Source of the DNA: Mesorhizobium sp. Pch-S
GTDB lineage: Bacteria; Pseudomonadota; Alphaproteobacteria; Rhizobiales; Rhizobiaceae
DNA: 64,000 bases
NCBI RefSeq assembly: GCF_004136315.1
Contig: NZ_CP029562.1
Coordinates: 3,178,501-3,242,500, forward strand
Direction: 5' to 3'
A program made the position numbers and the translations under genes. The notes below the pieces were generated by a model. That model saw only the letters and a program-made list of their open reading frames with translations. It ran no database searches and was not told the origin of the DNA. This document shows, one piece after another, positions 5,040-33,451 of this stretch (within the stretch, counting starts at the first letter, position 1; every line of letters begins with the position of its first letter).

Positions 5040-5678
5040 ATGAACACGGACGAATTGATCAAGACGCTGGGCGCTGATGTCAAAACGACGGCCATGCCGC
5101 TTGGCAGGATGTGGCTTGTCGTGCTGGCATTTGCGGCGGTCGCCGCAGCCGCCGTGTTCTTCATGACGATCGGCATGCGGCCCGATTTCATGCAGGCGAT
5201 GCAGACGATCCGCTTCCTCTTCAAGTTCGTCTTCACGATCACCCTGGCAATCACCGCTTTCCTGGCGCTGCGGATGCTGGCAATGCCGGGGGCACCGGCA
5301 GGCAGATATGGCCGCTGGCTGCTGGTCGCGCCATTCCTCATGGCTGCCGCCGTCGTTCTTGAATTGTTTGCGATGCCGTCGAGCGACTGGGGTAAACGTC
5401 TCGTGGGCAACAATATGATGATCTGCCTGTCGTTCATCCCGTTGATCGGTCTTGTTCCTCTTGCAGCTCTCCTGGTTGCCTTGAAACAGGCTGCGCCCAC
5501 GAGGCCGGCCCTGTCAGGCGCGGTCGCGGGATTGCTGGCCGGTGCCCTGGCGGCCACGTTTTATGCGGCACACTGCACGGACGACTCTCCGCTGTTCGTG
5601 GCGACCTGGTACAGTCTGGCCATTGCTGCCCTGGGCGGGATCGGAGCGCTGGCCGGCCGCTTTTTCCTGCGTTGGTAA
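5040..5678 (+). CDS. NrsF family (DUF1109) membrane anti-sigma factor
   Basis: 212 residues with a short cytoplasmic N-terminus (MNTDELIKTLGADVKTTAMP) and six hydrophobic segments, at about 22-42, 57-77, 90-112, 120-145, 155-175 and 183-205. This is the DUF1109/NrsF layout. The protein holds the upstream ECF factor at the membrane and releases it on stress; in Caulobacter two Cys residues are needed for sensing. One Cys is clear here (AAHCTDD, about residue 178). It starts 1 base after the sigma stop and is co-transcribed. The partner role rests on adjacency plus family. Confidence 0.86.
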   Translation: MNTDELIKTLGADVKTTAMPLGRMWLVVLAFAAVAAAAVFFMTIGMRPDFMQAMQTIRFLFKFVFTITLAITAFLALRMLAMPGAPAGRYGRWLLVAPFLMAAAVVLELFAMPSSDWGKRLVGNNMMICLSFIPLIGLVPLAALLVALKQAAPTRPALSGAVAGLLAGALAATFYAAHCTDDSPLFVATWYSLAIAALGGIGALAGRFFLRW

Positions 5679-5810
5679 AGCGGAAGATAAAACAGTGAAA
5701 TCTTATAGATGCAGACTGTTGCGCGGTTGCTTCACGACACCTTTAAATGGTGGACGCGCCCTCTATGCAATCATTGCTTAAATGAGATACTCCATAGTGG
5801 AGGTGAAGGG

Positions 5811-5828
5811 ATGCGCCTAGGTAGATAA
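5811..5828 (+). CDS. Possible five-codon leader ORF upstream of the cyclase
   Basis: ATG CGC CTA GGT AGA TAA follows a strong Shine-Dalgarno, GGAGGTGAAGGG. Its stop ends 4 bases before the GTG start of the MASE1-GGDEF gene, which has no good ribosome site of its own. The two frames differ. The arrangement suggests translational coupling of the cyclase to a leader peptide (MRLGR). Whether it is translated is inferred from sequence only. Confidence 0.4.
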   Translation: MRLGR

Positions 5829-5832
5829 CGTT

Positions 5833-8088
5833 GTGACGTTTCACCAGTACGAGGGACGTGCTCCGGGCAGGTATCTTTCAGCGATTGTGCTGGGCTTGGG
5901 GTTCTGGTTAGCGGCGGTGGTTTCGATCCTGCTGTCGCGGGTTGGCGACGGTGTCGCCACGATCTGGCTGGCTTCAGCCTTCGCTTTCGTGATGCTGGCC
6001 AGACGCAGATATGTCACCAGCTGGATCGACTACGCAGCCATCGCGCTCGCCACACTGGCTTCCAATGTCGCTTTCGGATCGTCCTGGAAGATGGGCGTAT
6101 TGTTCGCCGTGATCAACGGCGGCCATACCGCACTATCGCTCTGGCTGGTCGACCGTTTTGCAGGTGGCTTGCCGGTGAAAACCGACGCGCCGGCCCGAAC
6201 GTTCTCGCTCATTCTTTTTCTGACTGCGGTGCTGACTGATGCGATTACCGGCCTGGCTTTTGCCGGGGTCACGTATTTTCTGCATGGCTGGCCGATTATC
6301 CCTACCGCCTGGACGTTTCTCGCCAGCAACGCGCTGGGGTTCGCACTGCTCTTGCCGCTGCTGATGTATGCGTCACGCTCCGAAGTCGCGGCGGTACTCA
6401 AGCCGCAAGCCGTGCTGCGCGTCGTGCTGGTGGCGGCAATCTGTGCCGGCCTTGCTTATCTGGCACTCAGCCAGAGCCGCTTCCCGTTCGCGCTGGCAAT
6501 GCTTCCCTTGATGATCATCGCGCCAAGACTGGCTCATCTCGAGTTGGCGCTCGTTTGCGGTGTGACAGGAATTACATGCGTTGCCGTGGCGATGAGCGGC
6601 TTCATGCCGGGCATCAATGGCGGCGTCGAGATGTTGAGCGACGGCTTTCAGGTCTCGGTGGCCATCATCGTTTCGACACCGTTCATGGTCGGCTTGTTCA
6701 TCAAGCAGATCAGCGAAGATCATGCACGCCTGGCCGAGACGGAAACACGCTGGAATTTTGCTCTTGCCAGTGCCGGGCAAGGCGTCTGGGACGCCGACAT
6801 GCGCAACAACACCGTTCATTACTCGGCGACGTGGAAGCACATGCTCGGCTATGAGGAGCACGAACTGGGCAACGATCCGGACCTGTGGCTTGAACTTGCG
6901 CATCCGGACGATGTTGCGCGCATGGCTGCAGCCGATCGAGACCACATGGAAGGACGCACGCTCGAATACAAACTTGAATACCGCATGCGTCATAAAAGCG
7001 GACGCTGGATCTGGGTGGAGGATCACGGCAAGGCGATCGAACGAGAACCTGACGGAGCCGTCGCGCGGGCGATCGGATCGATGACCGATATCACCGAGCG
7101 CAAGGAGGCCGAAGAGCGGTTGATGGTTTCGGCAGCCCTTCTTGCCGACGAGAAGGAGCGGCTGCGTGTCATGCTGCAGTCGATCGGAGATGCCGTCATC
7201 GGCACCGACGCCGAAAACCGCATCACCTTCATGAACCCTGTTGCGGAAAAGCTGACGGGGACCACCAGCCTGGCTTCACTCGGTAAACCACTTGGCTTCG
7301 TCTACCGTGCCGTGGATGAGGAGACCGGACGTCGGCTCGACGAGCCGCATCTGGCAGACAACAGGCTGGAACGAACCGAGCAGAACAGCCGGGCACTTCT
7401 CACGCGAAACGACGGCACACGCTTCAGCATCCGCCAGATGGTATCGCCGATCCTGAATGAACTGAACGAGTTCAGCGGTTCCGTCATCGTCTTCCAGGAT
7501 TTCACCGATGCACGCACCTTGCAGCGGCAGCTCGCTTATGCCGCCACCCACGATGCGCTGACCGGCCTGGCCAACCGCCCCAGCTTCATACGGACGGTGG
7601 AGGACCTGCTCGACAGGGCCAGAAAGGACGCATCACACTACCAGTTGATGTTCATCGATCTCGACCACTTCAAGCCAGTCAATGATACCAGCGGCCACGC
7701 TGCCGGCGATGCGCTGTTGCAGAAAGTGGCTGCAACGATCAAGGCGGCGCTGGCACCGACGGATATCGTGGCCAGGTTTGGTGGCGACGAATTCTCGGCC
7801 GTGCTGATGTCGCCTTCCCCTGTCGAGGGCGAGCGTGCAGCCCTGGCGGTTCTCGATGCCGTTAGCGCGCTGGAATTCAGCTGGGAAGGCCAGACGCATC
7901 GCGTGTCTTCCAGCATCGGTCTCACGTCGATTGCAGCGGATTCCGGTGAAGCCAACGAAATCATCGCGAGGGCTGATGCGGCCTGCTACGCGGCCAAAGC
8001 GGCGGGCCGCAATTGCGCGTTCGTCGCGCTGGCTGGTTCCGAAGCAGGCGTTGCGATTCCGATGACGCGGGTGGCGACGGGAACCTGA
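5833..8088 (+). CDS. MASE1-PAS-PAS-GGDEF diguanylate cyclase
   Basis: 751 residues. An N-terminal MASE1-type sensor (about 15-295) with eight or nine membrane segments is followed by a PAS_3 domain (about 305-420, ending MTDITERKEAEE), a second PAS domain (about 435-550), and a GGDEF domain (about 560-735) with THDALTGLANR, FIDLDHFKPVND and FGGDEF at 650-654. The active-site motif is intact, so it should make cyclic di-GMP. The inhibitory site is degenerate: the RxxD position reads APTD. No EAL domain. The start is GTG 5833, next to the leader ORF at 5811-5828. Confidence 0.9.
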   Translation: MTFHQYEGRAPGRYLSAIVLGLGFWLAAVVSILLSRVGDGVATIWLASAFAFVMLARRRYVTSWIDYAAIALATLASNVAFGSSWKMGVLFAVINGGHTALSLWLVDRFAGGLPVKTDAPARTFSLILFLTAVLTDAITGLAFAGVTYFLHGWPIIPTAWTFLASNALGFALLLPLLMYASRSEVAAVLKPQAVLRVVLVAAICAGLAYLALSQSRFPFALAMLPLMIIAPRLAHLELALVCGVTGITCVAVAMSGFMPGINGGVEMLSDGFQVSVAIIVSTPFMVGLFIKQISEDHARLAETETRWNFALASAGQGVWDADMRNNTVHYSATWKHMLGYEEHELGNDPDLWLELAHPDDVARMAAADRDHMEGRTLEYKLEYRMRHKSGRWIWVEDHGKAIEREPDGAVARAIGSMTDITERKEAEERLMVSAALLADEKERLRVMLQSIGDAVIGTDAENRITFMNPVAEKLTGTTSLASLGKPLGFVYRAVDEETGRRLDEPHLADNRLERTEQNSRALLTRNDGTRFSIRQMVSPILNELNEFSGSVIVFQDFTDARTLQRQLAYAATHDALTGLANRPSFIRTVEDLLDRARKDASHYQLMFIDLDHFKPVNDTSGHAAGDALLQKVAATIKAALAPTDIVARFGGDEFSAVLMSPSPVEGERAALAVLDAVSALEFSWEGQTHRVSSSIGLTSIAADSGEANEIIARADAACYAAKAAGRNCAFVALAGSEAGVAIPMTRVATGT

Positions 8089-31432: not shown

Positions 31433-32673
31433 ATGTCCGCTACGATTTCCCCGCTCGCTCCCAAGAAATATCCCAAGATGCCGGCGATCGAGGGGGTACG
31501 CATCGCGACAGCCGAAGCAGGTATCAAATACAAGAACCGTACTGATCTCCTGACGATGGTGTTCGATCCCGGCACCGCCGTTGCCGGCGTGTTCACCCGC
31601 TCGAAATGCCCGTCGGCTCCAGTCGACTTGTGCCGGGAGAATCTCGGCCAGGGCAAGGCCCGTGTGCTGGTGGTCAATTCCGGCAACGCCAACGCCTTCA
31701 CCGGGAAAAAAGGTCGCGAGACGACGTCGATGACCGCCGCCGCCGCCGCCAAGGCTGTCGGCTGCGGCGCGGATGAGGTTTTCCTGGCTTCGACCGGCGT
31801 GATCGGCGAACCACTTGATCCAGGCAAATACAGCCATCTCCTGGCCGGAATGGCCAAGGAGGCGCGCCCGGACCAGTGGGCCAGGCAGCCAAAGCGATCA
31901 TGACCACGGATACCTATCCGAAACTGGTCACGGCCACGGTCAGGCTGGGTGATGTCGATGTGACGCTCAATGGTATCGCCAAAGGTGCCGGCATGATCGC
32001 ACCGGACATGGCGACGATGCTGTCTTTTGTCGCGACCGATGCTCCGATCGCCGCCCCGGTGCTGCAGGATCTGCTCTCCAGAGGGACTGCCAAGACATTC
32101 AATGCGGTGACGGTGGATAGCGATACCTCGACCAGCGACACGCTGCTTTTGTTCGCGACCGGCGCGGCCGCCAAACGTGGCGCTCCCGAGATCACGGATG
32201 CCAAGGATGCACGCCTCGGCGTCTTTCGCCGCGCCCTGAACAAGATGCTGAAGACGCTCGCCATCCAGGTGGTGCGTGACGGCGAAGGGGCCCGCAAGCA
32301 GATCGAAGTCACTGTGACCGGGGCGAAGTCGGCGCGTTCGGCCAAGCGTATTGCGCTGTCCATCGCCAACTCGCCGCTTGTGAAGACCGCGGTTGCCGGC
32401 GAGGATGCCAACTGGGGCCGGGTCGTCATGGCGGTCGGCAAGGCTGGCGAACCCGCCGATCGCGACAGGCTGGCGATCTGGTTCGGCGACAATCGCCTTG
32501 CCGTCGATGGCGAGCGCGACTCGGCCTATTCGGAAGCAGCCACCTCGGCCTACATGAAACGCGACAGCATCGTCATTCGCGCGGATATCGGCATAGGCAG
32601 CGGCAAGGCGACGGTGTGGACCTGCGATCTCACCAAGGAATATGTTGCCATCAATGGCGACTACCGGAGCTGA
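31433..32673 (+). pseudogene. argJ: argJ, bifunctional ornithine acetyltransferase/N-acetylglutamate synthase, with a frameshift
   Basis: The first 150 or so residues (from ATG 31433: [20 protein letters not shown] ... [20 protein letters not shown]) run up to DQWA near 31882. The rest continues one frame back from about 31885 ([52 protein letters not shown]) to the normal C-terminus. Restoring one base at 31883-31884 (gcc-xag-gca) gives an intact protein of about 413 residues with the self-cleavage site Ala-Thr in DMATML. ArgJ makes N-acetylglutamate and ornithine in arginine synthesis. Neither fragment should work alone. A sequencing or assembly error is as likely as a true mutation. Confidence 0.88.
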
Positions 32674-33451
32674 TTTGTCGAACCCGCAGCATCCTGCCAC
32701 TGTCCTGGCAAAGGTCCGCCGCTACGAGGCGGCAGGCTTTCGCGCGTGGCCGGCGGCAGCTGCGCACTATGACGGTACCTGGGTGGTGCGGTTGACGGCC
32801 GGCCATCCAGCCAAACGGCTGAATTCGATCAATCCGCTCGACCCGAACGATGTTCATCACCTGCCCGAACGCATCGCGCGTGCCGGCAGGCGCTTCGAAG
32901 CTTACGGGCGGCCGCTGACCTTCCGTGTTTCACCGCTGGCGGGAGCCGCTCTTTCGCGGCATCTCGACGCCGAGGGGTGGTCGCGCTTCGGAGAGTCGCT
33001 GGTCATGCGCATGCCGCTCGCAAAGGCGCCTGTCGATGATGTCCTCGATCAGATACCCCTCAAGGACATCAGCCGCTTCGTTTCGGCGACGCTGAAAGTG
33101 CATGGCGCCGCCGCTTCGCTGCGGCCGGGCCTTTCGGAAATCATCGGCGCGATCCAGCCCGAGGCTGGATTGTTCGCGCTGGAGCGCGGTGACGAGGCGA
33201 TGGCGACGCTGATATGCGTGCATGACGGCGATCTGGCCGGCTTGTTCGAGATTGCCACGGACAAGGCCGTGCGGCGGCAGGGATACGGCCGACAGCTGGT
33301 GTTGTCGGCCCTGAAATGGGCGCGGCTGCGCGGCGCCCGCGAGGCCTGGCTGCAGGTCGAGGCAGACAATGCCCCGGCGCTTGCGCTCTATCATGGCCTC
33401 GGCTTCGAGGAAGTCTATCGTTACCACTACAGGCAACCAGCCGTCGCATGA
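32654..33451 (+). CDS. GNAT family N-acetyltransferase
   Basis: About 265 residues. The N-terminal half is a degenerate GNAT-like domain ([40 protein letters not shown]). The C-terminal half carries the acetyl-CoA motif: [20 protein letters not shown], then [20 protein letters not shown] and YRYHYR. This is the usual neighbour of argJ and mutT in rhizobia; its substrate is unknown. ATG 32654 overlaps the argJ end by 20 bases; TTG 32675 after GGAG is an alternative. It overlaps mutT by 4 bases. Confidence 0.88.

Follow-up and report, generated by a model that had tools for sequence, protein, structure and literature searches.

Bacterial arginine synthesis can run as an acetyl cycle that uses a bifunctional ArgJ (families NF003802, TIGR00120 and PF01960), or as a linear route that uses an N-acetylglutamate synthase (NAGS), such as ArgA, together with ArgE. 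Mature ArgJ is naturally composed of two chains, which arise by self-cleavage. Mutations in arginine genes, with argJ among those listed, cause fitness defects in rich medium in wild-type S. meliloti, according to the accessible portion of one study (PMC5929573), and deletion of cg3035 in C. glutamicum gives partial auxotrophy, as stated in the accessible portion of another (PMC3827942). Other arrangements of arginine genes are described in the part of PMC1382215 that we consulted, and they leave our reading of the locus described below unchanged. Our search of the literature on argJ in Mesorhizobium, and on argJ or arginine auxotrophy in Sinorhizobium, yielded no title on a break of the kind that we describe.

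A second body of work bears on how such a break is to be read. Indels in long-read assemblies are known to fragment genes; in the excerpt available to us, the errors are mostly in homopolymers, with a small share removing a non-repeated base (PMC12007338). Here, we analyse argJ in a 64-kb stretch of DNA (C1:3178501-3242500; hereafter "the window") from the 6.62-Mb single-contig genome of Mesorhizobium sp. Pch-S. As in other bifunctional ArgJ systems, the encoded sequence spans the whole family profile and retains its ATML motif; the difference is that the gene is one base short, with no single coding frame in the assembly. We argue that the base is very likely missing through a residual error of sequencing or consensus calling, and not through a real mutation.

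The argJ gene of Pch-S is one base short

The argJ gene (31433-32673, + strand) has 1241 bases. Its upstream frame (31433..31903, +) runs from ATG 31433 to TGA 31901-31903, a length of 156 codons plus the stop, and its residues 1-150 are those of a normal ArgJ. The downstream frame (31876..32673, +; 265 codons) runs from GTG 31876 to TGA 32671-32673 and includes an in-frame ATG at 31900 that overlaps the upstream stop as ATGA (31900-31903). Alignment to a relative, G141, and to proteins P0001-P0005 and P0008 places the frame change at 31880-31886 (+), where Pch-S has one base fewer than its relatives; in the alignment to G141, the gap does not coincide with any homopolymer of three bases or longer. 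The motif ATML, which we take to be the ArgJ self-cleavage motif, is encoded at 32011-32022 (+), wholly within the downstream piece, and its Thr codon (32014..32016, +) could be read directly and is intact. The local gene order is secA (minus strand), a peptidyl-prolyl isomerase gene, argJ, a GNAT gene and a Nudix gene, where secA and the Nudix gene are presumptive names drawn from their translations.

The two pieces complement each other in the family profiles. They abut in PF01960, covering positions 2-122 and 125-377 of 377. In NF003802, the upstream half covers 3-142 of 400 (142.9 bits) and the downstream half 142-400 of 400; the latter alone scores 357.7 bits, just above the cut-off of 351, while covering only that part of the profile. 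A full-length NF003802 match in one protein was not found in this assembly, which has the halves only. A genome-wide profile search likewise found no second argJ, the two halves being the only PF01960 matches.

We searched the genus (146 genomes, including that of Pch-S) with the 1241-base gene as the query, deriving lengths by eye from the match table. Matching argJ DNA is present in 145 of the 146 genomes, Pch-S included; G073 gave no match. The aligned counterpart is exactly 1242 bases long in 139 of the 144 relatives that matched, in agreement with a preliminary description of this locus, which had proposed that argJ is split by a one-base deletion. The remaining relatives are G141, where 1239 bases of the query correspond to 1240, so that this copy too is one base longer than the part covered; G047 (1208 bases); G065 (1232 bases); G048, where the gene is cut over two contigs; and G122, where it is partial. 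We also fetched 109 relative argJ loci, 29 from the genus search and 80 from a homologue search, two sets between which organisms may overlap. At 108 of these loci, at least 390 of the 413 ArgJ residues lie in one stop-free open frame. The exception is a Brucella oryzae contig (L062), in which argJ (~5552-6789) is also in two frames, with the break at a different place.

In a protein homologue search, the best named matches to the Pch-S ArgJ are from Mesorhizobium. Protein P0002 (413 residues), which is present on 22 contigs, the longest of 2.16 Mb, is identical to the upstream half at 150/150 residues and to the downstream half at 262/262. P0001, P0003 and P0004 each differ by one residue over the same 412 residues, and the last 262 residues of P0001 are also all identical to the downstream half. 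The longest contigs carrying P0001-P0004 are shorter than 6.62 Mb; hence, these proteins come from other assemblies, and intact, near-identical copies of ArgJ therefore exist elsewhere, as an assembly error would lead one to find. Since P0002 matches both halves over 412 residues, any real break would be very young. The junction near 31883 and the length of about 413 residues that had been predicted from the sequence of the window are both borne out by these comparisons.

Conserved genes elsewhere in the assembly are also one base short

We compared 800 kb of Pch-S (C1:2610001-3410000) with 800 kb of G141 around its argJ. A frame change was counted when a change of one or two bases separated two parts that were each at least 30 residues long and at least 75% identical. 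Gene frames were chosen by summed match score and not as the longest open frame, because antisense frames often outlength genes in a G+C-rich genome, which makes longest-ORF gene calling unsuitable. Among 424 G141-defined genes, 13 frame changes in Pch-S satisfied this rule. In five of the 13, a single family match extends across the break, and each of these five genes is one base short: argJ, accA, and genes for an NAD-glutamate dehydrogenase, a propionate-CoA-ligase-like protein and a DUF1839 protein. Only argJ lies within the window. The breaks in the last three genes are on C1 near 2718976, 3112113 and 3144807, respectively. The NAD-glutamate dehydrogenase gene was identified by Pfam (PF05088) and has no NCBIfam match; the propionate-CoA-ligase-like gene matches NF007815 with 730 bits, below the cut-off of 955; and the DUF1839 gene, also identified by Pfam with no NCBIfam match, is the weakest case (86 and 75% identity). 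All five losses align outside homopolymers of three bases or longer.

The other eight changes were dropped, partly by judgement. Three are one-base losses upstream of the gene proper, positioned before a ppi domain (frame 322), a GluQRS match (2382) and a sub-threshold YccA-like match (1725); those in frames 322 and 2382 lie inside the window. The other five, of different size or sign, are in four frames with no Pfam match, namely 2101 (+2 and -2), 1109 (+1), 2056 (+2) and 2187 (+1), and frames 2101 and 1109 have no NCBIfam match either. One further one-base change, close to the end of a gene of 1053 residues (94% and 73%), fell below the 75% rule and was left uncounted.

In the reverse comparison, three changes were detected in G141 among 446 Pch-S-defined genes. 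One is the glutamate dehydrogenase break viewed from the other side, and the other two (621 and 6) fall outside genes as assessed by visual inspection; in our judgement, none of the three is a break in G141. We compared 400 kb with a second relative, G102, and detected no change in G102 among 106 Pch-S-defined and 166 G141-defined genes. Two of 101 G102-defined genes change in Pch-S: accA, whose break satisfies the rule here too (84/89%), and a 110-residue frame (C1 near 3249600) in which Pch-S and G141 share a one-base change (1/161 in G141). The argJ break is missed in this comparison, its upstream part being 72% identical and so below the rule. Any error rate must be modest, since the completeness of the genome is given as 100% and 354 of the 424 genes can be read to 90% or more in a single frame.

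The gene accA (C1:3013497-3014443; L174 and L175) is outside the window, 197 kb from argJ, and is split in two frames by its one-base loss near C1:3013830. A whole-genome search with TIGR00513 recovered it solely in two adjoining parts (2-205 and 205-317 of 321) and gave no further copy; the remaining two matches score 36.1 and 22 bits. In G141, accA matches NF004344 with 461 bits. Fatty acid synthesis is reported to be (quasi-)essential in Sinorhizobium in the part of PMC11211677 that was accessible, and we infer that accA is essential in the species of Pch-S as well, such that viability without the sole copy would be unexpected. For these reasons, the accA break is hard to accept as real. 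It is very probable that at least one loss of the argJ kind in this assembly, the one at accA, is false, the alternative being an accA copy on a replicon that is missing from the assembly. A probable false loss in accA shifts the odds for argJ strongly towards error, short of proof; argJ could carry a true mutation even if the accA break is an error.

The missing base is best explained as a residual assembly error

The preliminary description had left a choice between a sequencing error, a laboratory mutation and a real auxotrophy, and, having noted no good slippery sequence at the junction, had considered programmed frameshifting unlikely. We favour error because other conserved genes of this 800-kb region, with the sole accA among them, are broken in the same way. 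We infer that all five losses are errors, and likewise the kind of sequencing that lies behind them. As with the gene-fragmenting indels of long-read assemblies, single indels interrupt conserved genes here in a one-contig genome that is otherwise complete. On the other side, five losses against none is a small count that rests mainly on one relative, G141, and all five lie outside homopolymers of three bases or longer, unlike the usual long-read profile as given in the excerpt of PMC12007338. If the base is indeed missing through error, the gene would be an ordinary argJ of the bifunctional type, with glutamate N-acetyltransferase and ornithine acetyltransferase activities predicted from its sequence, whose copy in the assembly is one base short near 31880-31886. 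The living strain would then most likely make a normal 413-residue ArgJ, self-cut at ATML and running the acetyl cycle. The finding at argJ is ordinary. More generally, a one-contig genome that is scored as 100% complete can carry single-base losses, through which essential or near-essential genes look broken, and auxotrophy should not be inferred from one such broken gene alone.

A real loss of argJ would probably make the strain dependent on arginine

Single, isolated bases are indeed sometimes deleted, and arginine auxotrophy can be tolerated by strains maintained in rich medium. A real and recent loss-of-function deletion, acquired in culture or in nature, is the foremost competing explanation, although we consider it unlikely; the strain would then need arginine, or grow slowly without it. 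The fitness defects of S. meliloti arginine-gene mutants in rich medium (PMC5929573, as far as accessible) and the lack of a NAGS match over cut-off, described below, are in line with such a phenotype. Against a real loss stand the like losses in other conserved genes of this assembly, the sole accA among them, and the ArgJ protein itself, which is otherwise unchanged relative to the intact alleles and has undergone no further decay.

It had been proposed that the deletion would block arginine synthesis unless another acetylation route exists, and that the genome be searched for argA, argE and another argJ. The outcome is divided. As in the linear route, a clear ArgE is encoded (C1:542411-543526), exceeding the cut-offs of both TIGR01892 (373.6 bits; cut-off 297.7) and NF005710 (520 bits; cut-off 412). 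In genome-wide searches covering the two NAGS families TIGR01890 and NF049894, no classical ArgA scored above cut-off, the best match being the ArgB gene (127.3 of 202.85 bits), and nor did any CG3035-type NAGS (best 119.3 of 280 bits); a second argJ is likewise missing. Pch-S differs in this respect from organisms with the linear route, and argJ DNA is near-universal in its genus, as described above. With ArgE encoded and no NAGS over cut-off, a true loss of argJ would probably mean a need for arginine.

The best NAGS candidates, on the basis of weak sequence likeness to the CG3035 family, are two GNATs. The first is encoded directly downstream of argJ (32675..33451, +; 258 codons from TTG 32675) and is not part of the break; an alternative start at ATG 32642 would overlap argJ. 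It is Rv0428c_C/CG3035-like, with 75 bits against the CG3035-family cut-off of 280, and our literature search found no title on it. In 104 of the 109 relative loci, including an Ensifer locus (L100), a GNAT match begins no farther than 900 nt downstream of argJ, with a median gap of 18 nt between matches. The second (C1:17905-18600; L125) is closer to the CG3035 family, with 121 bits, and is still below the cut-off. Another GNAT, of 164 residues (C1:1465774), was assessed as a possible short ArgA and rejected (29 bits against TIGR01890 and 45 bits as RimI-like, none over cut-off).

These genes would permit a real deletion to be bypassed by a linear route, in which either GNAT makes N-acetylglutamate and ArgE deacetylates. 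We regard such a bypass as improbable. The ArgE scores, the sub-threshold GNAT matches and the partial auxotrophy that follows cg3035 deletion in C. glutamicum (PMC3827942, accessible portion) all speak for it; however, both GNATs fall well short of the cut-off and proteins of this type are diverse, ArgE is over cut-off in 131 of the 146 genus genomes, Pch-S included, and so is not a compensating gain, and loss of argJ is felt in S. meliloti (PMC5929573, in the portion consulted) even though the Ensifer locus has the GNAT neighbour. The specific version in which the deletion is real and harmless, with the argJ-linked GNAT an unrecognised NAGS, ArgE completing the linear route and argJ dispensable, is just as improbable. 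Were the break real, the role of the conserved argJ-linked GNAT would become testable.

Least credible, with a probability close to nil, is that both pieces are produced and function together, through a restart at ATG 31900 (ATGA) after TGA 31901-31903 or through frame slippage: the ATGA overlap is real and mature ArgJ does consist of two chains, but the split is within the first chain and not at the cleavage site, none of the 109 relative loci shows the arrangement at this place (L062 breaks elsewhere), and the ATG is within a conserved peptide, AAxAIMTTD, found in 108 of the 116 homologues, out of 120 listed, that are 405-445 residues long, so the overlap would follow from any such loss just upstream and is not special to this argJ.
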